Of a stretch of DNA of 43,843 bases, positions 19,563 to 30,043 are shown one piece after another. A model generated the notes under the pieces. That model was not told the DNA's origin. It searched no databases and saw only the letters and a list, made by a program, of their open reading frames with translations. The position numbers were made by a program, and so were the translations under genes. The stretch is taken from NCBI GenBank assembly GCA_903860745.1, contig CAIORQ010000022.1, forward strand, positions 1-43,843. The letters run 5' to 3'. Position 1 is the stretch's first letter; every line of letters starts with the position of its first letter. The stretch is from an uncultured Actinomycetes bacterium (lineage in GTDB: Bacteria; Actinomycetota; Acidimicrobiia; Acidimicrobiales; RAAP-2).

Positions 19563-20663
19563 CTACTGGACGCGGACGGGCATCAAGAGGTAACGGAAGT
19601 GCGTGTCGTCCACCCCGTGAACCATGGCGGGTCGCACCGCGTCGGACATCTCCAGGACGACCTCGTCACCGACCACCGCTTCGATCCCGTCGATCAGGAA
19701 TGACGGGTTGAAGGCGATGGTCAGTTCCTCGCCCAGGAAGTCGGCGTCGACGTTGTCCTCGATGTCGCCCGTGTCGATGCTCTGGGTGCGGATCTCCACG
19801 GACTTCTCCCTCATGGTGAGGCGCACCGATGAGGTTGAGTCCTTGGCGAGCAGTTTCGCCCTCTTCAGCGAGGTCAGCAGGGTGTCCTTGGCGATGCGCA
19901 ACTGGTTGGGGTAGCTCGCTGGGATGAGTTGGAGCACCGAGGGGTAGTTGCCGTCGATGAGTCGCGACGCGATGGTGCTCGAACCCACGAGGAAGCAGAT
20001 CTCCGCGTCGGTCAGCGTCACGCCGATCTGCGCGTCGGTGGGAAGCGACGAGGCTGCTCGCTGCAGCTCCTGGAGGGCCCGCGCCGGGACCAGGAGGTCC
20101 TGGCTTCCACCGATCCCCGCCACGCCGGGAACGTCACGAACCGCGAGTCGGTAGGAGTCGGTTGCGATGAGCCGTAAGGTCTCGTTGTCGTGGGTGAACA
20201 AGACACCGGTCAATAACGGCCGTGCGTCATCGTTGGCCGCCGCACGAACGACCTGGTTCAGACCCTGGACCAGGTCCTGGGCCACGATCTGGGTGGTGGC
20301 TCCGGACACCGGTGGGAGGTTGGGGTAATCCATCACCGAGAAGGTTCTCAACGAGAACTTCGCGCGCCCCAAGGACACCTCGACGTTCTCGTCGTGCGAG
20401 GCGATGGTCACCGCCCCTGCCTCGAGGGATCGAACCGCGTCCACGACGAGACGCGCTGGGACCACGGTGGCCCCGTCTTCGAGACCGATGACGTCGACGT
20501 GGGTTCGAACCGTGATGTCGAGATCGGTTCCGGTCACCGTCAACTCATTGCCGGTGAGGGACAACAAGATGCCCGACGAAGCCCCGATGAGGCGGGTGGC
20601 GACCACACGACTGGCTGCGCTGAGTGCTTCCACCAGAAGATCGCGCTCTGATTTGAACTTCAT
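19563..20663 (-). CDS. dnaN: DNA polymerase III sliding clamp (beta subunit)
   Basis: A 366-residue beta clamp of normal length with three repeated clamp domains. Typical segments are MKFKSERDLLVEALS at the start, TGTDLDITVRTHVD, and the C-terminal MSDAVRPAMVHGVDD...YLLMPVR. The ATG at 20661-20663 has a GAAAGAAAGG ribosome site. The open frame extends to 20759 but that part is origin DNA. It is the first gene after oriC on the minus strand, downstream of dnaA. Confidence 0.97.
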   Translation of the reverse strand: MKFKSERDLLVEALSAASRVVATRLIGASSGILLSLTGNELTVTGTDLDITVRTHVDVIGLEDGATVVPARLVVDAVRSLEAGAVTIASHDENVEVSLGRAKFSLRTFSVMDYPNLPPVSGATTQIVAQDLVQGLNQVVRAAANDDARPLLTGVLFTHDNETLRLIATDSYRLAVRDVPGVAGIGGSQDLLVPARALQELQRAASSLPTDAQIGVTLTDAEICFLVGSSTIASRLIDGNYPSVLQLIPASYPNQLRIAKDTLLTSLKRAKLLAKDSTSSVRLTMREKSVEIRTQSIDTGDIEDNVDADFLGEELTIAFNPSFLIDGIEAVVGDEVVLEMSDAVRPAMVHGVDDTHFRYLLMPVRVQ

Positions 20664-20915
20664 AGGACGGCCTTTCTTTCCTACTGAGGATACGTGTGGA
20701 TTGGTATATAGAAATTGGTTAGTAGTAGTAGGTCTGTGTGTTTGTGGAAAAAGACGCAAAATACCTGATCGCTTGTGACACTAACGTGAACGTTTCCTGC
20801 ACAGGCGTGTGCCAAATTGTTTCAAGCCTCTCATCTCAACCTTTGAGTCATGTGGACAGACGTCGTGGTTTCCCACCGTTGTCAACAAGGTCATCACCAC
20901 TTCGTCCACAGGCGC
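20664..20915. other. oriC: Chromosomal replication origin (oriC)
   Basis: A 252-base gene-free region between dnaN and dnaA. DnaA-box-like nonamers, written as read on their own strand against TTATCCACA/TTGTCCACA: CAATCCACA (20703-20695, minus), TTTTCCACA (20751-20743, minus), CTGTCCACA (20859-20851, minus), TTGTCAACA (20879-20887, plus) and TCGTCCACA (20902-20910, plus). All but the first differ from consensus at one base. An AT-rich stretch (TATATAGAAATTGGTTAG, 20705-20722) next to four TAG triplets marks the likely unwinding site. The position and box cluster match actinobacterial origins. Confidence 0.9.
20719..20751 (-). promoter_or_regulatory. DnaA-trio unwinding element with adjacent DnaA box
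   Basis: Read on the minus strand: a DnaA box TTTTCCACA (20751-20743), an 11-base spacer, then CTACTACTACTAA. The complementary strand therefore carries four 5'-TAG (3'-GAT) triplets at 20720-20731. This is the box-spacer-trio order described for the basal unwinding element of Bacillus subtilis. It faces dnaN, with the AT-rich stretch next to it. Confidence 0.75.
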
Positions 20916-22271
20916 CTACATCTCACCTTGGAGCTGCTGGGTCAAGGTATTGATCTGTGTGAGGAGCTCGAAGTTGACCGTGATTTGCTCCTTGATCTTC
21001 TCGACCGCGCTGATCACCGTCGTGTGGTTGCGACCGTCGAAGATCCGCGCGATCATCGGGTACGAGTAGTTGTCCAGCAGGTCCCGAATGAGGTACATCG
21101 CGACATGTCGGGCTTGGACGAGAGGACGCAGACGCTTCGAGCCCAAGACGTCCTCGGTGCTCAACCCGTAGAAGTCAGCCACGGCCTGGACGATGGTCTC
21201 GGGCTTCAACACCACGTGTTCGTGCCCAAGACCCGTGAGGTGCTTCTGCGCCAACTCGAGGGAGATGGGTACCTGATGGAGGTTGGAGAAGGCCCGCAGC
21301 ATCGTGATCGAGCCCTCGAGCTCCCTGATGTTGTCCCGCACCCGGTGGGCGATCCATTCAGTGACCTCGTTGGGCAGGGTGATCCCCTCGGCCTCGGACT
21401 TCGAACGCAAGATGGCGATGCGCGTCTCGAGGTCGGGTTGGTCGATATGGGTGACCAGACCCTGGAGCAAGCGACTGCGGAACCGTTCCTGGAGTCCCGC
21501 CAGGTCCCGTGGTGATCGATCGGAGGTGAGGACGATCTGCTTGCCCTCCGAGTGCAGGGTGTTATAGGTGTGGAAGATCTCCTCGTGGAAGGTCTCGCCC
21601 CGGGACTCCATGAACTGGATGTCGTCGATCAACAACACGTCGACCTCGCGATAGCGCTCGTGCAGCGCGAGTTGTGTACGGGTCTGGATGGCCCGGATGA
21701 AGTCATTCAAGAAGGTCTCGGTCGAGACGTAGAGGACCTTGCGTACCGGGTAGTTCTCCTGCACGTAGTTGCCGATGGCGTGAAGGAGGTGGGTCTTACC
21801 CAGACCCGAATTCCCGTACATCAACAAGGGGTTGTAGGCGCGGCCGGGTGTCTCGGCGGCCGCGAAGGCGGCGGAGCGGGCTAGTTGATTGGAGTTGCCC
21901 ACGACGAAGGTGTCGAAGGTCATCCGCGGATCCAGACGAAGAGGACGGTCGACGCTCGTCACTCGCACCGGCGCGACGTCGACGTCCGCGCCCGTCGGCT
22001 CAGGTTCACTGCGTCGGTCGCCGTCGTCACCGACCGTTAGCGATACTGTCACCGAGTCACCGAGAAGCTGTTGGGCCTGTTCGGTGATCAAAGGGAGGTA
22101 GCGCTGTTGCACTCGTAACAATTGGATCTGGTTCGGCGCGGAGATGATCAATTCATTGTTGTGGTAATCTACAAGTCGAAGTGCGCTAAGTCCGGCTGAC
22201 CACATCGCGTCAGAACTCTTGCCACGCAAGGAGTCTCGTAGGGCGGACCAGACCTCGTCGATACTCTGCAT
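20916..22271 (-). CDS. dnaA: Chromosomal replication initiator DnaA
   Basis: A 451-residue AAA+ initiator. Domain I is at the N-terminus (VWSALRDSLRG). A short acidic domain II follows near residues 85-105. Domain III has Walker A GNSGLGKTH, Walker B LLIDDIQF and the arginine-finger region RFRSRLLQGL. Domain IV carries the DnaA signature (ARHVAMYLIRDLL, then GRNHTTV). ATG 22271 is preferred because GGAGG lies five bases upstream; a GTG at 22283 opens the frame four codons earlier. A promoter with an overlapping DnaA-box-like site lies upstream, so autoregulation is likely. It reads toward oriC and dnaN. Confidence 0.97.
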   Translation of the reverse strand: MQSIDEVWSALRDSLRGKSSDAMWSAGLSALRLVDYHNNELIISAPNQIQLLRVQQRYLPLITEQAQQLLGDSVTVSLTVGDDGDRRSEPEPTGADVDVAPVRVTSVDRPLRLDPRMTFDTFVVGNSNQLARSAAFAAAETPGRAYNPLLMYGNSGLGKTHLLHAIGNYVQENYPVRKVLYVSTETFLNDFIRAIQTRTQLALHERYREVDVLLIDDIQFMESRGETFHEEIFHTYNTLHSEGKQIVLTSDRSPRDLAGLQERFRSRLLQGLVTHIDQPDLETRIAILRSKSEAEGITLPNEVTEWIAHRVRDNIRELEGSITMLRAFSNLHQVPISLELAQKHLTGLGHEHVVLKPETIVQAVADFYGLSTEDVLGSKRLRPLVQARHVAMYLIRDLLDNYSYPMIARIFDGRNHTTVISAVEKIKEQITVNFELLTQINTLTQQLQGEM

Positions 22272-22295
22272 TTCTTCCTCCACAGACCAAAACCG

Positions 22296-22323
22296 ACTTT
22301 ATCCTCAACCACGCGATTGTCAA
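22296..22323 (-). promoter_or_regulatory. dnaA promoter
   Basis: On the minus strand, a consensus -35 TTGACA (22323-22318), a 16-base spacer and TAAAGT (22301-22296) lie about 25 bases before the dnaA ATG. A plus-strand TTATCCTCA (22299-22307), one mismatch from a DnaA box, overlaps the -10, which would allow DnaA autorepression. Confidence 0.65.
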
Positions 22324-22484
22324 ATCGGTTGGACTGCCCGTTTGGGCTCGTAACACTACACCCTTCTTGGGGGTCGGCGCGGGGTCGCGGAGGCGGTTGT
22401 CGGGTAGCATTGTCAACACCCGCGCGCCAGCGACCCCCAGGGGGTACCGCGAAGCGTATTGACACAGCTTGAGAAGAGGATTTT

Positions 22485-22619
22485 GTGAAGCGTACCTATC
22501 AGCCAAATCAGAGGAAGAGGGCGAAGACCCACGGTTTCCGTGCGCGTATGCGCACCCGCGCCGGTCGCGCCGTTCTCAAGTCCCGTCGTCTCAAGGGCCG
22601 TCACCAGTTGACGGTCTGA
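22485..22619 (+). CDS. rpmH: 50S ribosomal protein L34
   Basis: A 44-residue, very basic protein with the full L34 pattern ([20 protein letters not shown], then [17 protein letters not shown]). It starts at GTG 22485 behind an AGAGGA ribosome site. It is divergent from dnaA in the classic bacterial arrangement and is first in the rpmH-rnpA-yidD-yidC-khpB operon. The upstream 200 bases contain TTGTCAACA (22410-22418), one mismatch from a DnaA box, but no clear rpmH promoter was identified. Confidence 0.97.
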
Positions 22620-22626
22620 GTTCTCG

Positions 22627-22953
22627 ATGCCCGGTCGGGTCTCAACCCGGCGGCAGTTCGCCGAATTCTCGACACCGACGGGCCGCGGACAGAGTGGCTC
22701 ACTACGAGTGGTCTTCGTGGAGCACCCTGGCCAAGGTTCGTGCGCCATCGCCTTCGCCATCAGTAAGAAGGTCGGCAATGCGGTGGTCCGGAATCGGATC
22801 CGACGCCAACTCCGGGCGGCGATCGACGGACTCTCTCCCGCGCCACACCCAGGATTATACCTGATCAAGTGCGCTAAAGGAACGGGGCAACTTTCTTATG
22901 ACGAAATCCAACAACACCTTCGAGCAGCCCTTGGTCGAGCCCACGCCCTCTAG
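22627..22953 (+). CDS. rnpA: Ribonuclease P protein component
   Basis: A 108-residue basic protein that assists the RNase P RNA in trimming the 5' ends of tRNA precursors. The RNR motif region reads ISKKVGNAVVRNRIRRQLRA, followed by LYLIKCAKGTGQLSYDEI, typical of RnpA. It starts seven bases after rpmH. Its 3' end overlaps the yidD frame by 56 bases. The RNA subunit gene (rnpB) is not in this window. Confidence 0.95.
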   Translation: MPGRVSTRRQFAEFSTPTGRGQSGSLRVVFVEHPGQGSCAIAFAISKKVGNAVVRNRIRRQLRAAIDGLSPAPHPGLYLIKCAKGTGQLSYDEIQQHLRAALGRAHAL

Positions 22954-23200
22954 GGCTTCGAGGGCCGCGACGGGACTGCTGTGGTCGATCTCCTGGTACC
23001 AGAAGCTTCGCGCCGGGAGAATCTCCCCTTGTCGTTTCTACCCCTCGTGTTCGGAGTACGCGGCCGAGGCCATCAGTATCCACGGGGCCCTGCGTGGCTC
23101 GGGACTGGCTCTACGGCGTCTGAGCAAGTGCCGTCCCCTGGGCCCCCACGGGATCGACCTGGTACCCGTAGCCAAGAAAGATAGGACACTCACCCCATGA
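22898..23200 (+). CDS. yidD: Membrane protein insertion efficiency factor YidD
   Basis: A 100-residue protein with the conserved YidD core: WYQKLRAGRISPCRFYPSCSEYAAEAI, here quoted only as YQ...ISP and CRFYPSCSEYA, then HG...G..L...RLSKCRPLGPHGIDLVP. It is thought to help YidC insert membrane proteins and sits directly before yidC. ATG 22898 lies inside rnpA (56-base overlap), and no good downstream start exists before the conserved core. Its stop overlaps the yidC start (ATGA, 23197-23200). The Cys triplet typical of the family is present. Confidence 0.92.
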   Translation: MTKSNNTFEQPLVEPTPSRASRAATGLLWSISWYQKLRAGRISPCRFYPSCSEYAAEAISIHGALRGSGLALRRLSKCRPLGPHGIDLVPVAKKDRTLTP

Positions 23201-24117
23201 AGTCGTTCACCCACTCCATCGGCAGCCTCTTCCAGCCGATCTTCCACCTCTTCGGTTGGCTGCTGGCCTTCTTCTACGGCCTGATCCCGAACTACGGGGT
23301 CGCGATCATCCTCTTGACCATCGTCATCATGGGGGCTCTGACCCCCTTCACCATCAAGAGCACCAAGTCCATGGCCGCCATGCAGCGCCTCCAGCCGGAG
23401 ATCAAGAAGCTCCAGCAGAAGTACAAGGGACCCGAGAATCGGCAGATTCTCAACGAAGAGATGATGAAGCTGTACCGAGAAGAGGGTGCCAACCCGCTCG
23501 GTGGCTGCCTCCCGGTGCTGCTGCAGGCCCCGTTCCTGTTCATCCTCTACAGCGTCATCAAGGGGTTGGCCTTCACGTCGGTGAAGAACAAGGTCATCAT
23601 CGCCCATCCGCGCTACATCCCCCAATCCTCGAAGATGTACAGGAACCTGGTGGCCTCACACGGCCAGATCAAGGTGTTTGGGATGGACCTTAACTTGAAG
23701 GTGTTCTCGTCCCACAGTTCAATCTGGGCTCAACTCCCCTTCATCCTCTTCGTTGCGGCTGCCGTCGGCTTGCAGTACTTCCAGATGGCCCAGTTGAACA
23801 ATCGCAGCCGCAAGGTAGGCCAGCCGATGCCCCAGCAACAGCTGATGATGCAGCGGTTCATGCCGATCTTCTTTGCATATTTCTACATCTTGATTCCGGC
23901 AGCAGTCGTCCTCTACATGATTGTTTCTACGATCATTCGAATAATTACTCAGGATTTGATGTTCCGTGCGGGAATCTCCAATCCCCACAAGAACGGCGTG
24001 AAGCAGGCGGAGAAGGAGTTGCCGGCCCCGAGCCCCAAGGCCCCCGAGGTCAAACCTTCAACCCTCAAGTCGCCCCAACCTCGCTCGAAAGCCAAGCGCA
24101 AAAGAAAGGAACGGTAA
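23197..24117 (+). CDS. yidC: Membrane protein insertase YidC (Oxa1 family)
   Basis: A 306-residue insertase of the short Gram-positive form, without the large periplasmic domain of proteobacteria. About five hydrophobic helices are seen, including YGVAIILLTIVIMGALTPF (residues ~33-51) and PLGGCLPVLLQAPFLFILY (~105-123). A cytoplasmic loop QRLQPEIKKLQQKYK and a Lys/Arg-rich tail ending KAKRKRKER are also present. It inserts membrane proteins alone or with SecYEG. It is translationally coupled to yidD, and khpB starts three bases after its stop. Confidence 0.96.
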   Translation: MKSFTHSIGSLFQPIFHLFGWLLAFFYGLIPNYGVAIILLTIVIMGALTPFTIKSTKSMAAMQRLQPEIKKLQQKYKGPENRQILNEEMMKLYREEGANPLGGCLPVLLQAPFLFILYSVIKGLAFTSVKNKVIIAHPRYIPQSSKMYRNLVASHGQIKVFGMDLNLKVFSSHSSIWAQLPFILFVAAAVGLQYFQMAQLNNRSRKVGQPMPQQQLMMQRFMPIFFAYFYILIPAAVVLYMIVSTIIRIITQDLMFRAGISNPHKNGVKQAEKELPAPSPKAPEVKPSTLKSPQPRSKAKRKRKER

Positions 24118-24119
24118 CC

Positions 24120-24995
24120 ATGGATTGGGTGGAAACCACCGGCAAGTCCATCGAAGAGGCTACTGATCGGGCGCTCGCTCACCTCGGTGTTCATCGCGAC
24201 GATGCCGAAGTCGAGATCCTGGAAGAGCCAAAGGCCGGTCTCTTCGGCCGGGTCCGTGGTGAGGCCCGGGTGAGAGCTCGGGTACGACCGACCGGACCAC
24301 GGCCCAAGCGATCGCGTCGTTCAGGCGGCCGTGAGGATCGACCGCGGAGCAGTGACGGCCGTGAAACGAAGAAGGACAGGGGCCCCAAGTCGAAGCCGTC
24401 CGAGGGCGAACGGTCCCGCGCCCCGCGCGAGACCCCTGAAGGGGGACGCCCGAAGCAGAGCCCCAAGCAACAGACGCCCAAGGCGGAGAAGGTTTCATCA
24501 AAGGAGAGCAGTATGGCTGAAGGAATCACACTGGCGGAACAGGGTGCGATTGGTAAGGGATTTCTTGAGGGTCTACTGGCCTCGATGAACATCACGGCTG
24601 AGGTGAGCGTGAAGGAGATCGACAGCGAGACCGTCGAGATCTCGGTCAATGCGAACCCCCCGACGGAGCTCGGAGTTCTGGTGGGTCCTCGGGGAACCAC
24701 TCTGCAGGCGCTCCAGGAAGTCACGCGGACGGTTGTCCAGTCGAAGAGCCCTGGACGCACCGACCGAATCTTGGTGGACGTCGCGCAGTACCGTGAGCGC
24801 CGAATCGCGGCTCTCGGTCGCTTCGCGAGCCAGGTCGCCCAAGAAGTCGTCGAAACCGGCGAAGAGCGGGCCCTCGAGCCCATGTCGGCGGCGGACCGCA
24901 AGGCGGTCCACGACGCTCTTTCCGAGGTCTCGACGGTGGTGACGCGATCAGAGGGTGAGGAGCCGCGCCGCTTCGTGGTGGTGTCTCCGGCATAA
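24120..24995 (+). CDS. khpB: RNA-binding protein KhpB (Jag, SpoIIIJ-associated)
   Basis: A 291-residue RNA-binding protein. The Jag N-terminal domain (residues 1-52) includes AGLFGRVRGEARVRARV. A long Arg/Lys/Ser/Pro-rich linker, probably disordered, spans ~57-132. The KH domain has GPRG at 189-192 as its nucleic-acid loop. The R3H domain ends with R260-x3-H264. KhpB with KhpA binds many RNAs and links to cell division in Gram-positives. It follows yidC by two bases. rsmG follows by eight bases, with a terminator hairpin just inside rsmG. Confidence 0.93.
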   Translation: MDWVETTGKSIEEATDRALAHLGVHRDDAEVEILEEPKAGLFGRVRGEARVRARVRPTGPRPKRSRRSGGREDRPRSSDGRETKKDRGPKSKPSEGERSRAPRETPEGGRPKQSPKQQTPKAEKVSSKESSMAEGITLAEQGAIGKGFLEGLLASMNITAEVSVKEIDSETVEISVNANPPTELGVLVGPRGTTLQALQEVTRTVVQSKSPGRTDRILVDVAQYRERRIAALGRFASQVAQEVVETGEERALEPMSAADRKAVHDALSEVSTVVTRSEGEEPRRFVVVSPA

Positions 24996-25003
24996 TTGGT
25001 ACC

Positions 25004-25627
25004 GTGACAACTCAATGGCTGTACCGTGCCCTCGAGGAATCGAGGGCACGGGGCTTTTTAGGCCCCCTTCCCATCGAAGTACAGATCGAGCACGCCCTGG
25101 GCTTCGAGCGTGTCTGGAACGACGTCTCGGACACTCCCCCTTCGCGCTTCCTGGATCTTGGCAGCGGAGGCGGTCTGCCGGGGCTCGTCCTCTTCGATCA
25201 CTGGAAGGTCCCGGCAACCTTCATCGATTCGATGATCAAGAGGACCTCATTCCTCTCCGAAGTCCTTTCCTCGGAGGGTTCACCCGATGAGGGTCGCGTC
25301 CTGACGGGGCGCGCGGAACAACTTTCTCGAGACGACCTCCTCGACGGCTCCTTCCCTCTGGTGACGGCGAGGTCCTTCGGTCCCCCGGCCGTCACCGCTG
25401 AGTGCGCGGTCAGATTCCTGTCCCTCGGTGGCTTCCTGATCGTCTCTGAACCACCCGACGATGACGAGACGGGCCGTTGGAACCCTGCGGCCCTCGGACA
25501 GCTGGGACTTCACTTGGAGGATCGTGTCCGCCATGGCGCGGCCTACCAGATCCTTCGCAAGGTCCGGCCCACGCCCGACCGGTATCCGCGGAGCATCGGC
25601 ACTCCCGGCAAGAGCCCACTCTTTTGA
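25004..25627 (+). CDS. rsmG: 16S rRNA (guanine-527-N7) methyltransferase RsmG (GidB)
   Basis: A 207-residue class I SAM methyltransferase. The SAM-binding loop reads RFLDLGSGGGLPGLVL (~48-63), followed by FIDSMIKRTSFLSEVL and a LVTARSFGPPAVTAECA segment, as in GidB. It methylates G527 of 16S rRNA; loss of the enzyme gives low-level streptomycin resistance in other bacteria. It starts at GTG 25004; no later start precedes the conserved GFLGP. A terminator-like hairpin lies at codons 7-19. The first parS site begins directly after its TGA. The sequence is rather divergent and lacks the usual HLL.S motif, reading EHALGFERVW instead. Confidence 0.9.
   Translation: MTTQWLYRALEESRARGFLGPLPIEVQIEHALGFERVWNDVSDTPPSRFLDLGSGGGLPGLVLFDHWKVPATFIDSMIKRTSFLSEVLSSEGSPDEGRVLTGRAEQLSRDDLLDGSFPLVTARSFGPPAVTAECAVRFLSLGGFLIVSEPPDDDETGRWNPAALGQLGLHLEDRVRHGAAYQILRKVRPTPDRYPRSIGTPGKSPLF
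25024..25059 (+). terminator. Intrinsic-terminator hairpin inside the start of rsmG
   Basis: A perfect 12-bp stem (CCGTGCCCTCGA 25024-25035, complement 25040-25051) with a GGAA tetraloop is followed by GGC and five T residues (25055-25059). It is the best terminator-like structure in the window, yet it lies 20 bases into rsmG. A competing short pairing, GGGGC (25050-25054) with GCCCC (25062-25066), would disturb its base. It may end the rpmH-khpB transcript or attenuate rsmG. Confidence 0.7.
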
Positions 25628-25643
25628 TGTTTCACGTGAAACA
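25628..25643. other. parS: parS site 1
   Basis: Perfect 16-base palindrome TGTTTCACGTGAAACA, beginning immediately after the rsmG stop codon. Confidence 0.95.
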
Positions 25644-25848
25644 TCAACTTCCAACTCGAACATTCCGTTCCTGCGGCGCTCGTCCATGGGGCTCGCCAGT
25701 CGGCGTGGTGTTCGCCGGCTTCTAACCCGAGTCCCCACCGGACGCGCATGTGTCCTGATCAAACTTGTCGCGACGCGGAGTGACGAATGACTCCCCCGAG
25801 GATTCGGTCGTGGGCTGGTTCCGCACGAGGCTCCTCGAGAAAGTGCGA

Positions 25849-25864
25849 TGTTTCACGTGAAACA
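25849..25864. other. parS: parS site 2
   Basis: Perfect 16-base parS palindrome, 221 bases after site 1. Confidence 0.95.
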
Positions 25865-26013
25865 CGCCTCCTGTGCAGTGTGGTTGCGGCGAGCCGAGTG
25901 TGGCGATTGTGGTGTGAGCACAGACCCGGCGAAAGGGCAGAGCTCCCGACTTCGCGCTGCGTCGAACCCCTTCACCGAGGGACCCACGATGACGTTCCCG
26001 TCCCGGCCCTCAA

Positions 26014-26029
26014 TGTTTCACGTGAAACA
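26014..26029. other. parS: parS site 3
   Basis: Perfect 16-base parS palindrome, 165 bases after site 2. Confidence 0.95.
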
Positions 26030-26385
26030 ACGGCGGTGTCGCCGTGGGGTCATGGCGAGCGGTGACGGGCCTCGGAGTTGCGCTGAACACCTGGGAAAGG
26101 CCGCCAGACGTCAATGCGAACCACTCCCGCCCTGGGCGACGCTTGGTGAGCAAAGGAAGCGAAGGATCGCGGCCAAGAGTTCCTCTTGCGGGCTGGGACG
26201 TGCTGCCTTTGGGCCGTGGGATCCGTTGTCGTCATGATTGCCCTGACGCGAAGGATTCCCTCGCGGGCGGACAGTGATGCACTGCCCAGACGGTCACCGT
26301 CGGTCGGAGCGAGTCCCTCTACGATGCAGATTGGACGACTCAAAGGCGGACGCCGGTTTCGTTGAGAATTTCGGAGAGTTGACGG

Positions 26386-26401
26386 TGTTTCACGTGAAAC
26401 A
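26386..26401. other. parS: parS site 4
   Basis: Perfect 16-base parS palindrome, 372 bases after site 3; this is the largest gap in the array. Confidence 0.95.
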
Positions 26402-26553
26402 TCGCTGTGCTTCGAGAGTCTCGAAGCTCCGGTGTCGCCACCGACTCCGACCCCGCGTGTGCCGCAGCGGAGAATACGAGAACCCAAGCCTGTCCACTGG
26501 TCGAAACGGTCGAATTGTTCACCGTGAAGACCAGGGGGTGTGCATGTCTGGGA

Positions 26554-26569
26554 TGTTTCACGTGAAACA
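26554..26569. other. parS: parS site 5
   Basis: Perfect 16-base parS palindrome, 168 bases after site 4. A decayed parS-like sequence lies shortly before it (26515-26531). Confidence 0.95.
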
Positions 26570-26778
26570 TCGCCCGACAAGGCTCCCAACGGCTGCTCGA
26601 GGAGGGAGTGGGTTCCTTCGAGGAATAGCTACCGTGGGACTCGGGCTGGCCGGGTCGGACGGTCCAGATCGGTCCCGTTCGCCGTCCGAAGACGATGTGT
26701 CGAGTTTGAGGGGGGAGTCGACGTCTCTCAAACAGGTATTTCATTCGTGCGGTGAAGCGGAGTAGTCTTATTCGCAGA

Positions 26779-26794
26779 TGTTTCACGTGAAACA
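26779..26794. other. parS: parS site 6
   Basis: Perfect 16-base parS palindrome, 225 bases after site 5 and 85 bases before the parA start, where bound ParB could also affect parAB transcription. Confidence 0.95.
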
Positions 26795-26878
26795 CCAGAA
26801 CTTGACGACAAATGCAAATCCAAGGTGAATATCCTTGAGTTGTCCGAGGGTAGGAAGTCAACTACGGGGAAGTGGCAA

Positions 26879-27652
26879 ATGGCAGACGCCGCCAAAATGA
26901 CGATATTTGCTGTGGCCAACCAGAAGGGTGGGGTGGGAAAGACCACCACCACCACGTCCCTGGGCGCCGCACTGGCGGAGGCGGGCAAGAGGGTCCTGAT
27001 CGTCGACCTCGACCCCCAGGGGAACGCCACTACCGGCCTCGGTGTGGACGGACGGCGCTTTGAGAAGTCGGTCTACGACGTCATGCTCAATGACGTTCCC
27101 ATGGTCGATATCGTGGAGCCGACCGGTTTCAACAACCTTTTCGTGGCTCCCGCGACGTTGGACCTGGCTGGGGTGGAGCAGGAGTTGACGGCTGTCATCT
27201 CCCGGGAGCTCCGTCTGAAGAAGGCCCTCGCCTCCGTGGAGGGCGACTTCGACTACGTCTTCATCGACTGCCCACCCTCGTTGGGCCTCATCACCATCAA
27301 CGCCTTCGCCGCGGCGACCGACATCATGGTGCCGGTTCAGACCGAGTTCTACGCCCTGGAGGGTCTGACGCAGTTGCGGGCCATCATCGATCTGGTTCAG
27401 AAGAACCTCAATCCTGACCTGAAGATCACCAAGGTCGTCTTGACGATGTACGACGCCCGCAATACGCTGTCCCAGGACGTCGCGCTGGAGGTGCGGCGCC
27501 ACTTCACCGAGGAACTGTGTCGTACGAAGATCCCTCGGACCGTTCGACTCGCCGAAGCACCTTCCTTCGGACAACCGATTACCGTGTTCGATCCCCAATC
27601 CAAGGGTGCGAAGGCGTACCGCCAACTAGCAGAGGAGATCATGAATGGCTAG
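26879..27652 (+). CDS. parA: Chromosome partitioning ATPase ParA (Soj)
   Basis: A 257-residue deviant-Walker ATPase that moves ParB-parS complexes over the nucleoid. The motif KGGVGKTTT (17-25) contains the signature lysine, and later motifs are VDLDPQGN and VFIDCPPSLG. ATG 26879 is chosen because GGGGA lies eight bases upstream and the family begins shortly before the Walker motif; a GTG at 26825 would add 18 residues. It overlaps parB by eight bases. It lies directly after the parS array, as in other actinobacterial origins. Confidence 0.95.
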   Translation: MADAAKMTIFAVANQKGGVGKTTTTTSLGAALAEAGKRVLIVDLDPQGNATTGLGVDGRRFEKSVYDVMLNDVPMVDIVEPTGFNNLFVAPATLDLAGVEQELTAVISRELRLKKALASVEGDFDYVFIDCPPSLGLITINAFAAATDIMVPVQTEFYALEGLTQLRAIIDLVQKNLNPDLKITKVVLTMYDARNTLSQDVALEVRRHFTEELCRTKIPRTVRLAEAPSFGQPITVFDPQSKGAKAYRQLAEEIMNG

Positions 27653-28571
27653 GAAGCCCGGACTCGGCAAGGGACTCGGTGCCCTGATCCCCGAGGGACA
27701 AGAAGTCGTGGAGGAGGTCACGGTCGTCGCAAGCCAGGGACCGCTGCGACAACTCCCCATCTCCGCGATCATCCCCAATCAGTTTCAACCGCGCAAGTCA
27801 TTCAATGACGAGAGTCTCCAGTCCCTCGCGTCCTCGGTGCGCGAACTCGGAGTCCTCCAGCCCATCATCGTGAGGCCCCTCGAGGGCGAGCCGGGTCGCT
27901 TCGAGCTGATCGCCGGCGAGCGCCGCTGGAGAGCCGCCGGCCTGGCGGGGTTGGCCACGGTACCCGTCCTGGTCCAGGATTCCGTCAACGACAGGCTCTC
28001 CCTCGAACAAGCGGTCGTTGAGAACCTCCACCGCGTCGATCTCCATCCTTTGGAAGAGGCTGCGGCGTACCAACAGTTGATCGACGAGTTCGACCTCACC
28101 CATGAGCAGGTCGCCCTGCGGGTGGGCAAGAGCCGGGCCAACATCACCAACACTCTTCGTCTCCTCCAGTTGGGTGAAGCCGCGCAGTCCGCCTTGGCCC
28201 AGTCCCAGATATCGGCAGGTCACGCCCGATCGCTGCTGGCCATCAGCGACCCGGAGGCGCAGGCGACGATGCTGGCACGGGTGATCAAGAACGAGCTGTC
28301 CGTGCGGGCAACCGAGGAGGCCGTCAAGGCATTCCTGGAACCTCGCCCAGTGGACACACCGTCCACAAGTGTTTCGGACATCTCAGGCCGCCCGCCTCGT
28401 CTGCGTCCCGTCCCGGATGCGAGCGTCGCGGAGTTGGAGCAGCTGCTCGAGGACTATCTCAATACCCGGGTCCACGTGGACCTGAAGGGGCGTAATGGGC
28501 GCATCATCATCGATTTTGCCGACCTTGATGACCTCGAGAGGATCTACATCGCCATCTCACAGGTCAGGTAA
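27645..28571 (+). CDS. parB: Chromosome partitioning protein ParB (Spo0J)
   Basis: A 308-residue CTP-dependent DNA clamp. MARKPGLGKGLGALIP at the N-terminus is the ParA-stimulating segment. The CTPase motifs are GERRWRAA (91-98) and ENLHR (126-130). The helix-turn-helix LTHEQVALRVGKSRANITN (~151-169) reads parS. The C-terminal part (VHVDLKGRNGRIIIDFADLDDLERI region) is the dimerisation and DNA-binding domain. It overlaps parA by eight bases. Six cognate sites lie just upstream of parA. Confidence 0.96.
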   Translation: MARKPGLGKGLGALIPEGQEVVEEVTVVASQGPLRQLPISAIIPNQFQPRKSFNDESLQSLASSVRELGVLQPIIVRPLEGEPGRFELIAGERRWRAAGLAGLATVPVLVQDSVNDRLSLEQAVVENLHRVDLHPLEEAAAYQQLIDEFDLTHEQVALRVGKSRANITNTLRLLQLGEAAQSALAQSQISAGHARSLLAISDPEAQATMLARVIKNELSVRATEEAVKAFLEPRPVDTPSTSVSDISGRPPRLRPVPDASVAELEQLLEDYLNTRVHVDLKGRNGRIIIDFADLDDLERIYIAISQVR

Positions 28572-28705
28572 GTCTCAACCTTCAAGATAACCTTCTCCTT
28601 GAAGTTATCCCCAAGTTGTGGATGAACCTGTGGGTTTCCGCCCTCGGGACTGAAAATCCACTGAAAATGGGGTATTCAAACGGTTCCGGACGGGGCGGTC
28701 CAGGC
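28572..28705. promoter_or_regulatory. parB-cwlM convergent gap with hairpin and DnaA-box-like sites
   Basis: A 134-base gap after parB. GATAAC(C)TTC (from 28586) can pair with GAAGTTATC (ending 28609) with one bulge, a possible terminator. Two sites one mismatch from a DnaA box follow: TTATCCCCA (28605-28613, plus) and TCATCCACA (28625-28617, minus). A third, TTTTCCACA (28719-28711, minus), overlaps the cwlM end. Confidence 0.45.
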
Positions 28706-29644
28706 TCAGCTGTGGAAAAAGTCCCGAATCGCCTGGGAAATCGCCCTCGTCAGCTGTTGGGCCTCGAAAGGCGTCAGCACGCCATGCTCCAGGTGCAGCG
28801 TGGTCATCTGCGTTTCGCGCAAGATGGGCAGCGCCATGCCGGTCACTTCGATGCGCTGGGCGACGTCATCACGCGACACCGCGTTCGCGACGGAGCTGGC
28901 GAGCTGCTCACCGCGACGTGAATACGACCGGTAGCTCGACCAATAATGCAGGTGAATCCCCTCCCAGTCAGGCTGCTGGCTCAGCGAGATCACGCCAATC
29001 GCGTTGACCGAGTTCGCGTGGGACGCGAGCTGCTCGACGCTCCAGCCAGAGCGTGCCTCGTCGAAGTCGCCCAAGGGGAGCGACGACGCGAGTGTGGACG
29101 CGAGGGGGCTGGGGCCCCACACCACGATGGGACCAGGCTGGGTCCGTCCGAATCCGGCCTCGTCGCGGGCGTCACTGACGAGGGTGCGCGAGCTCAGGGG
29201 GGAGAAGCGCCGCAACTCGTTGAGGGTTCGCTGCGTCAGGGTGCCGTTGGTCTCGAGACCGCAGTTTCGTTGGAATTCGCTCAGGGCTCGATCGAGCAGG
29301 GGGCCGAAGACGCCATCGACACGACCCGGATCGAAGCCCAGTTGGGACAGTCGCACCTGGAGCTCCGCGACGTCGTCACCACGTAGATACGGCGTGACCA
29401 GGTAGAGAAGCCGGTCGCCGAGTCGCCAACCGGCCTCGAGAAGCCGGTTCCAGGTGACCTGGTCCACCACTCCGGTGATGGCGAGTCCCCGGGAACGCTG
29501 GAAGGCCTCGACCGACGCCCCGGTCGCTTCAGAGAAGGTGTCGCCCAGGCTGTCGACCGGCACGAAGCCGAGCGAGGTCAAGCGATCGTGAAGCTCACGA
29601 ACGAGCCGATCCGATGCCCCGAGGGAGAGAGTGATGTTGTCCAG
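28706..29644 (-). CDS. cwlM: CwlM-like peptidoglycan-synthesis regulator (degenerate amidase)
   Basis: About 312 residues. Two peptidoglycan-binding domains are seen (~6-70 and ~88-145; RGDDVAELQVRLSQLGF and VDGVFG are typical). An amidase_3-like domain follows (~172-312). The order and the phrase WRLGDRLLYL...LRGDDVAELQ match mycobacterial CwlM as recalled. The amidase metal site is lost: WGPSP (176-180) stands where DPGHGG is expected and SLSQQPD where SLHAN is expected; only E286 of LHLEHGV remains. It is thus probably a non-catalytic regulator, as CwlM is in mycobacteria (MurA activation, MurJ contact). The start is uncertain: CTG 29644 is used because no ATG, GTG or TTG lies between the trxA stop and the first domain. 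It follows trxA. Confidence 0.8.
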   Translation of the reverse strand: MDNITLSLGASDRLVRELHDRLTSLGFVPVDSLGDTFSEATGASVEAFQRSRGLAITGVVDQVTWNRLLEAGWRLGDRLLYLVTPYLRGDDVAELQVRLSQLGFDPGRVDGVFGPLLDRALSEFQRNCGLETNGTLTQRTLNELRRFSPLSSRTLVSDARDEAGFGRTQPGPIVVWGPSPLASTLASSLPLGDFDEARSGWSVEQLASHANSVNAIGVISLSQQPDWEGIHLHYWSSYRSYSRRGEQLASSVANAVSRDDVAQRIEVTGMALPILRETQMTTLHLEHGVLTPFEAQQLTRAISQAIRDFFHS

Positions 29645-29655
29645 AAGTCGAAGGA

Positions 29656-29982
29656 CTAGAGGTTGGCGGTGATCTCTTGGAGCAGCGCACCCTTGGGCTT
29701 GGCGCCGACCAAGCGTGCGACCACTTCGCCATCCTTGAACAGCAACAGGGTCGGGATGCTCATCACCGAGTACTTGGTGGCGGTCGCCACGTTCGAGTCC
29801 ACGTCGAGCTTGCCGATGACGAACCTCTCGGCCTGCTCGTCGGCGAGTTCTTCGAGGATCGGGGCGATCATCTTGCAAGGCCCGCACCACTCCGCCCAGA
29901 AGTCCACCAGCAGCGGCTTGTCGGACGAACGCACGACTTCGTCGAAGGTGGCGTCGGTCAGGGTCGTGATCTTGTCGCTCAT
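29656..29982 (-). CDS. trxA: Thioredoxin
   Basis: A 108-residue thioredoxin of standard length with the active site W32-C33-G34-P35-C36 and the conserved cis-Pro segment [14 protein letters not shown]. It reduces protein disulfides using electrons from thioredoxin reductase, whose gene trxB lies 61 bases upstream. ATG 29982 has a GGAGG ribosome site; the frame extends 13 codons further but without support. It is syntenic with trxC next to cwlM in mycobacteria. Confidence 0.97.
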
Positions 29983-30043
29983 AACTACCTCCAACAGTGG
30001 CGTCGGACAGTCACGACGCACAGTCCACCTTAGTCAGGCGGGG

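Follow-up and report, generated by a model that had tools for sequence, protein, structure and literature searches.

The window (the whole 43,843-nucleotide stretch of DNA that was analysed) carries rsmG (gidB) on its plus strand, with a GTG start codon and a product of 207 amino acids. The product scores 44.3 bits with profile PF02527 (cut-off 27) and is the single match to that profile in the genome. With the NCBIfam model TIGR00138 the score is 46.3 bits, below the equivalog cut-off of 99.5, so the window RsmG is a divergent member. A GSGGGLPG stretch is present in the divergent RsmG of this lineage. The gene follows khpB (jag/eloR) after a gap of 8 nt (Table 1). On the plus strand before khpB lie genes that we take, from their translations, to be rpmH (22485-22619), rnpA (22627-22953), yidD and yidC (23197-24117). 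The genes on the minus strand and downstream of rsmG are, again by translation, presumably dnaA and parA plus parB, respectively. Both dnaA and a cluster of six perfect parS sites lie within 5 kb of the hairpin described below, and the first of the six abuts the rsmG stop codon.

A terminator-like hairpin in the first codons of rsmG

Codons 7-19 of rsmG read CCGTGCCCTCGA-GGAA-TCGAGGGCACGG-GGC-TTTTT. The two arms form a perfect 12-bp stem at 25024-25051, after which comes GGCTTTTTAG, and the khpB stop codon ends 28 nt 5′ of this stem. The preliminary description had T5 coming after a perfect 12-bp stem whose loop is GGAA. The stem and the loop are as stated, but the T5 run does not follow directly, being set off from the 12-bp stem by GGC. 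In the window this GGC extends the helix by pairing with 25021-25023, giving 14 of 15 pairs. The RNA of 25000-25080 folds at -36.2 kcal/mol (z = -3.9), and none of 200 shuffled sequences folded as well.

Table 1. Features around the 5′ end of rsmG (window coordinates)
Feature	Position	Strand	Remarks
khpB (jag/eloR)	24120..24995	+	NF041568 164.8 bits, cut-off 145; R3H and Jag_N domains
CATAAT, -10-like; putative leaderless promoter	24991..24996	+	7 nt before rsmG start
rsmG (gidB)	25004..25627	+	
Outer stem extension, 5′ side (pairs 13-15)	25021..25023	+	one mismatch in window
Terminator stem, 5′ arm	25024..25035	+	
Loop GGAA	25036..25039	+	
Terminator stem, 3′ arm	25040..25051	+	
GGC, outer stem extension, 3′ side	25052..25054	+	
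T5 tract	25055..25059	+	codons TTT TTA (Phe-Leu)
GCCCC, candidate alternative-pairing partner of 25050-25054	25062..25066	+	not conserved
parS, six perfect sites (TGTTTCACGTGAAACA)	within 25628-26794		rsmG-parA gap

The codons chosen here are unusual for the genome. In a sample of 295 kb that includes the window (66% GC, 159 ORFs), Phe is written TTT in 6.6% of cases, Leu TTA in 0.5% and Arg AGG in 3.9%, and the hairpin and T-run use all three of these rare codons. When the hairpin peptide was redrawn 200,000 times with synonymous codons at the usage of this genome, a stem of at least 10 pairs arose in 0.27% of the draws, and a stem with a T-rich tail in 0.014%.

Terminator-like sites as a class are not in excess in this region, with 7 listed in 20000-30000 against a shuffle mean of 6.9, and the rsmG hairpin is the strongest of the 7 listed. 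Across the 295 kb, four hairpins including that of rsmG reached a score of at least 34 with at least five T in 8, and only the rsmG hairpin among these four has a T5 run. Another of the four (L068) also lies near an ORF start and has a weaker tail. On the opposite strand of the window, no T-run was found after the rsmG palindrome. Rfam families gave no match to 24500-25700 up to E = 1.

Conservation and covariation within the genus

Relatives were drawn from a search of 61 genomes (the genome itself and 60 others), and 172 genomes of the family were covered by protein search. The genus is represented by 99 genomes, mostly drafts in many contigs; the named ones among them are metagenome-derived. 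We dropped 15 genomes in which RsmG had no match, one with only the end of the gene (G035), and two with an assembly gap in the hairpin (G028 and G350). The remaining 81 genomes provide 80 distinct rsmG 5′ ends, as the stretch in G368 equals that in G021. Apart from those based on a tree, the counts that follow are of related sequences and not of independent events.

Conservation in close relatives had been named beforehand as a test that could refute the signal. The hairpin is kept at the same rsmG codons in 75 of the 80 distinct readable 5′ ends. The inner 11 pairs form in every one of these 75 members; the outermost of the 12 fails in 7, leaving 68 with all 12. Of the outer pairs, 13 forms in 65 members, 14 in 57 and 15 in 61. 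The GGC is fully paired in 40 of the 75, and in those the stem is therefore 15 bp long and abuts the T-run. The median folding energy of the 75 hairpins is -30.9 kcal/mol. A covariance model built from 29 sequences and run on the 99 genus genomes gave strong full-length matches in 77 (29 of which had trained the model, and one of which, G028, has the gap inside its hairpin), or 82 counting weak matches.

The T-run is conserved along with the stem. It has at least five T in 62 of the 75 members, and its codons are TTT TTA in 48 and TTT TTG in 14; in the rest of the same rsmG genes, TTA accounts for 4.8% of Leu codons and TTT for 38.5% of Phe codons. The terminator d-score is above 0 for 62 of the 75 in a free scan and for 64 with a hand-set stem, whereas d exceeded 0 in 0 of 72 at a control position elsewhere in rsmG. 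Five genus genes are without the hairpin, four of them from a single clade (G178, G356, G360 and G369) and the fifth from G367. All five also have no T-run, with TTC CTG or TTC CTC in its place, which indicates that stem and T-run are kept or lost together. The gaps in G028 (L015) and G350 (L137) are both runs of NN inside the hairpin, suggesting that the hairpin may disturb sequencing or assembly.

Covariation was assessed in an alignment of 29 of the 80 distinct 5′ ends. In these 29 rows, 99.4% of the cells pair, as opposed to 25-65% for slid pairings. The preliminary description had asked for compensatory changes in relatives, and these exist: two-sided changes occur at 7 of the 12 pairs (9 of 15 with the outer three counted), a number that 0 of 500 shuffles equalled. 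We built an RsmG tree without the first 25 codons (178 columns, by a quick method that leaves many open forks). On this tree, pairs 2, 3, 4, 5 and 10 need 1, 1, 4, 2 and 4 changes, respectively, and each alternative state at these pairs is a full two-sided swap. Some of the swaps alter the protein, with RALEESRAR becoming SSLEKSREL (L031), RSLEISRER (L033), RVLEESRTR (L016) or LALEESRAR (L139), and the inner 11 pairs are intact in all four despite the changed peptide.

The compensatory changes, the rare codons of the T-run and the joint retention or loss of stem and T-run indicate that, judged from the sequences, the rsmG hairpin is under selection as RNA. Since the inner 11 pairs persist through swaps that alter the protein, it is the RNA that is selected and not the peptide alone. 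One could suppose instead that the codons are self-complementary by chance, as the peptide LE.SR..GFLGP has counterparts in families with no hairpin and its codons can be complementary. Given compensatory changes that alter the peptide, this is so very unlikely as to be nearly negligible; the yields of the synonymous draws, the shuffled alignments, the rare T-run codons and the control place all speak against it as well.

The same data bear on the idea that the palindrome acts as DNA, as a site for an origin-proximal protein, with no RNA signal. In its favor, the palindrome is strong and has dnaA and six perfect parS sites nearby. However, the T-run is conserved on one side only and is lost with the stem, and base swaps at outer and inner pairs alike leave the pairing intact. 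Nor is the core repeated: 23 genus genomes have a match to it with at most one mismatch, and in 23 of 23 it lies at rsmG. We regard a DNA site as highly improbable. An extra core match elsewhere occurs once in G017, and a one-mismatch match off rsmG occurs in G040, which belongs to another family. A repeat family or regulon motif was considered and rejected, because the core palindrome is mostly confined to rsmG and two-mismatch matches elsewhere are sporadic.

Other genera, the reading frame and the upstream region

Outside the genus this signal is nearly absent, as a T-tailed hairpin with d above 0 occurs at 1 of 74 loci of other genera and families (68 + 6). That locus is L054 of G059 (family f24), where the first rsmG codons contain an independent 16-bp hairpin with TTTT behind it; it looks like a second arrival at the same solution, on the evidence of one genome of that family. 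In G415 (genus g176), a strong hairpin at the same place is followed by GGGTTTCTTGG, and the GGG between stem and T deprives it of a terminator score. Strong GC-rich hairpins without a T-run occur in three other families (G043, G050 and G038; loci L036, L037 and L044), placed 25-30 nt past the khpB stop codon and before the conserved part of rsmG, in an apparent intergenic gap. The khpB ends of L042, L048 and L054 were excluded as apparently wrong.

A terminator within a reading frame raises the question of whether the gene start is correct. Recognisable counterparts of the hairpin-encoded peptide LE.SR..GFLGP are present in other genera and families lacking such a hairpin (LLEVLDRSRTLGFLGPGPV in L085 is one example). 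These counterparts make a misplaced rsmG start an unlikely explanation, and we reject it, in agreement with the preliminary description, which had held that a wrong start would not easily account for the hairpin. Its placement of a terminator-type signal inside the true rsmG reading frame is supported. On the simplest reading, the coding sequence is the older of the two and the signal was added to it later.

The upstream layout is nearly fixed. Across the 75 hairpin-bearing genus members the khpB-rsmG gap ranges from -4 to 11 nt, the stem starts 27-28 nt past the khpB stop codon in 67, and it starts 20 nt past the rsmG start codon in 71. A Shine-Dalgarno core before rsmG was found in 0 of the 75. 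In two hairpin-less genes (L083 and L134), the start codon is preceded by AGGAG or GGAG.

A -10-like CATAAT overlaps the khpB stop codon in the window. It agrees with TATAAT at 5 of 6 positions but does not fit TANNNT, and it occurs 7 times on both strands of the 295 kb. The element stands at a spacer of 5-8 in 48 of the 75 members, with a weaker 4-of-6 match in 4 and none in 23. If any position within the 36 nt ahead of the Trp codon is allowed, it is found in 51 of the 75 hairpin-bearing members and in 0 of the 5 hairpin-less ones. Among 646 start candidates in the 295 kb, TANNNT lies 6-7 nt before starts 24 times, against 1.5 per position elsewhere, and leaderless transcription therefore seems common in this genome. 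The position of CATAAT suggests that a leaderless promoter specific to rsmG may well exist. In that case both the transcript starting there and the one coming from rpmH-khpB would be subject to the signal.

A promoter-like element at nearly fixed spacing from a terminator would also suit a stable small RNA of about 55 nt, running from the CATAAT start to the stop at the T-run and possibly bound by KhpB. ORF-derived and 5′-derived small RNAs are known in E. coli, according to the accessible part of PMC7815308. Against a small RNA, the stretch of ~20 nt leading up to the stem differs from species to species, except for the Trp-Leu codons, and this means that no conserved pairing region is seen by eye. 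We give this reading only a small chance.

Probable attenuation of rsmG

We consider it likely, from the sequence comparisons, that codons 7-19 of rsmG embed an intrinsic terminator working as an attenuator of rsmG. The argument for attenuation is that every full-length rsmG transcript must read through the hairpin. RNA polymerase would arrive from the rpmH-rnpA-yidD-yidC-khpB operon or start at the putative leaderless promoter overlapping the end of khpB. The hairpin would form about 20 nt into the rsmG message, and polymerase would stop at the T-run in some fraction of its passes, so that RsmG would be encoded by read-through transcripts only. That termination takes place in the cell is something we infer from the form of the signal.

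Findings from E. coli help to gauge how strong such a signal could be. In the accessible part of PMC4824070, the terminator tR2 is nearly silent a few bases past a stop codon and reaches ~90% efficiency from ~28-30 bp onwards. For a terminator located 30 bp within an ORF, translation of that ORF lowers the efficiency by only ~10%, according to the same paper. The rsmG stem lies from the khpB stop codon at close to the distance at which tR2, as given there, is ~90% efficient. By these figures, much of the transcription from khpB and a good part of that of rsmG should stop at the signal, and rsmG would then be made at a low level or conditionally.

Several findings do not fit the attenuator uniformly. 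The T-run is shorter or broken in 13 of the 75 members, and d is 0 or less in 11 of the 75 even with the hand-set stem. CATAAT is missing at the leaderless spacing in 27 of the 75, including the 4 with a weaker match. One clade of four genus genomes and one further genome have no hairpin. Finally, a conserved antiterminator was not seen. The preliminary description had proposed that pairing of 25050-25054 with 25062-25066 could prevent termination. This pairing can form in the window, but all five pairs are present in only 20 of the 75 genus members, which does not support a role as an antiterminator. No other conserved antiterminator emerged either, the terminator being the only substantial helix in the RNAalifold consensus of 74 sequences.

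How read-through might be controlled is a separate matter. Gating of the rsmG terminator by translation is a plausible hypothesis. An early-loading ribosome on the putative leaderless transcript might raise read-through; the first ribosome would have to load and move a few codons before polymerase meets the T-run, or else the message would end. The fuller proposal, in which a leaderless rsmG message uses its own first codons as a sensor of translation, is tentative and, in our judgement, rather unlikely. The small loss under translation in E. coli weakens simple ribosome gating. If the proposal is true, output of the 16S rRNA G527 methyltransferase would follow the supply of free, fast-initiating ribosomes, and rsmG would be a self-attenuator with no leader peptide, antiterminator or ligand.

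The signal could also be mainly a terminator of the rpmH-khpB operon that was squeezed into rsmG in a compact genome, with its effect on rsmG a tolerated side effect. The nearly constant distance of the stem from the khpB stop codon in 67 of the 75 members, near the distance from which ribosomes cease to repress a terminator in E. coli, fits such a role, as do the hairpins past khpB in G043, G050 and G038, which have no T-run and whose rsmG starts are unsettled. The near absence of T-tailed hairpins at the 74 loci of other genera and families does not. In addition, the transcripts that could yield the RsmG protein must all pass the signal, so it would be an rsmG attenuator whatever its origin. 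An operon terminator in this sense is possible, and we lean against it.

A last alternative is that the hairpin insulates the parS centromere array downstream of rsmG from the polymerase traffic of the rpmH operon. This was examined at loci with at least 300 nt downstream, the loci without the genus hairpin being 20 of L075-L102. With up to 2 mismatches allowed, at least three parS sites lie downstream in 43 of 47 hairpin-bearing genus loci and in only 3 of the 20 others, all 3 of the same family. However, five parS sites are likewise present at the single readable hairpin-less genus locus (L083), and in genera g26 and g27 there are 3-4 parS sites but not this terminator. We think insulation of parS is improbable.

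Attenuation of rsmG, the reading we favor, would have consequences beyond this gene. A terminator that overlaps the coding start of its target and is preserved by compensation even where the protein changes as a result points to selection for premature termination, of a strength sufficient to mould a housekeeping enzyme. Were the signal gated by translation, this would be a very simple attenuator, tying an rRNA-modifying enzyme to ribosome supply. The case also shows that hairpins at gene starts in high-GC genomes are not to be written off as noise or wrongly placed starts.

The rsmG signal resembles an intrinsic (Rho-independent) terminator in its GC-rich stem of 12-15 bp, short loop and one-strand T-run, and in its d-score, which is above 0 in most genus members once the stem is set by hand. 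It differs in lying within the 5′ codons of its own target, rather than after a gene or in a leader. The ribosome-mediated attenuators trp, pyrBI and C. glutamicum ilvBNC, which have a leader peptide, likewise place a terminator early in a translated stretch, and by analogy formation of the rsmG terminator could depend on the ribosome. Unlike them, rsmG has no separate leader ORF, its terminator being in the target ORF itself, and no conserved antiterminator. Mapping of 3′ ends in E. coli has revealed premature termination and ORF-internal 3′ ends (accessible part of PMC7815308). The rsmG signal is like the ends described there in lying inside a coding sequence, and unlike them in being known from genus-wide compensatory changes instead of mapped ends.

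A survey of premature-terminator attenuators in 302 genomes treated the stretch from promoter to first start codon, as set out in the accessible part of PMC2965389. The signals it describes there are of the same type as that of rsmG and also near the gene start; gidB is absent from the text of that survey (PMC2965389). A literature search by title and abstract opening found no terminator described inside rsmG, which is no proof of its absence in print. Messages for rsmG probably have to get past a stop signal to be completed, as judged from the genus-wide sequences. The rsmG case is most likely a new variant of transcription attenuation.
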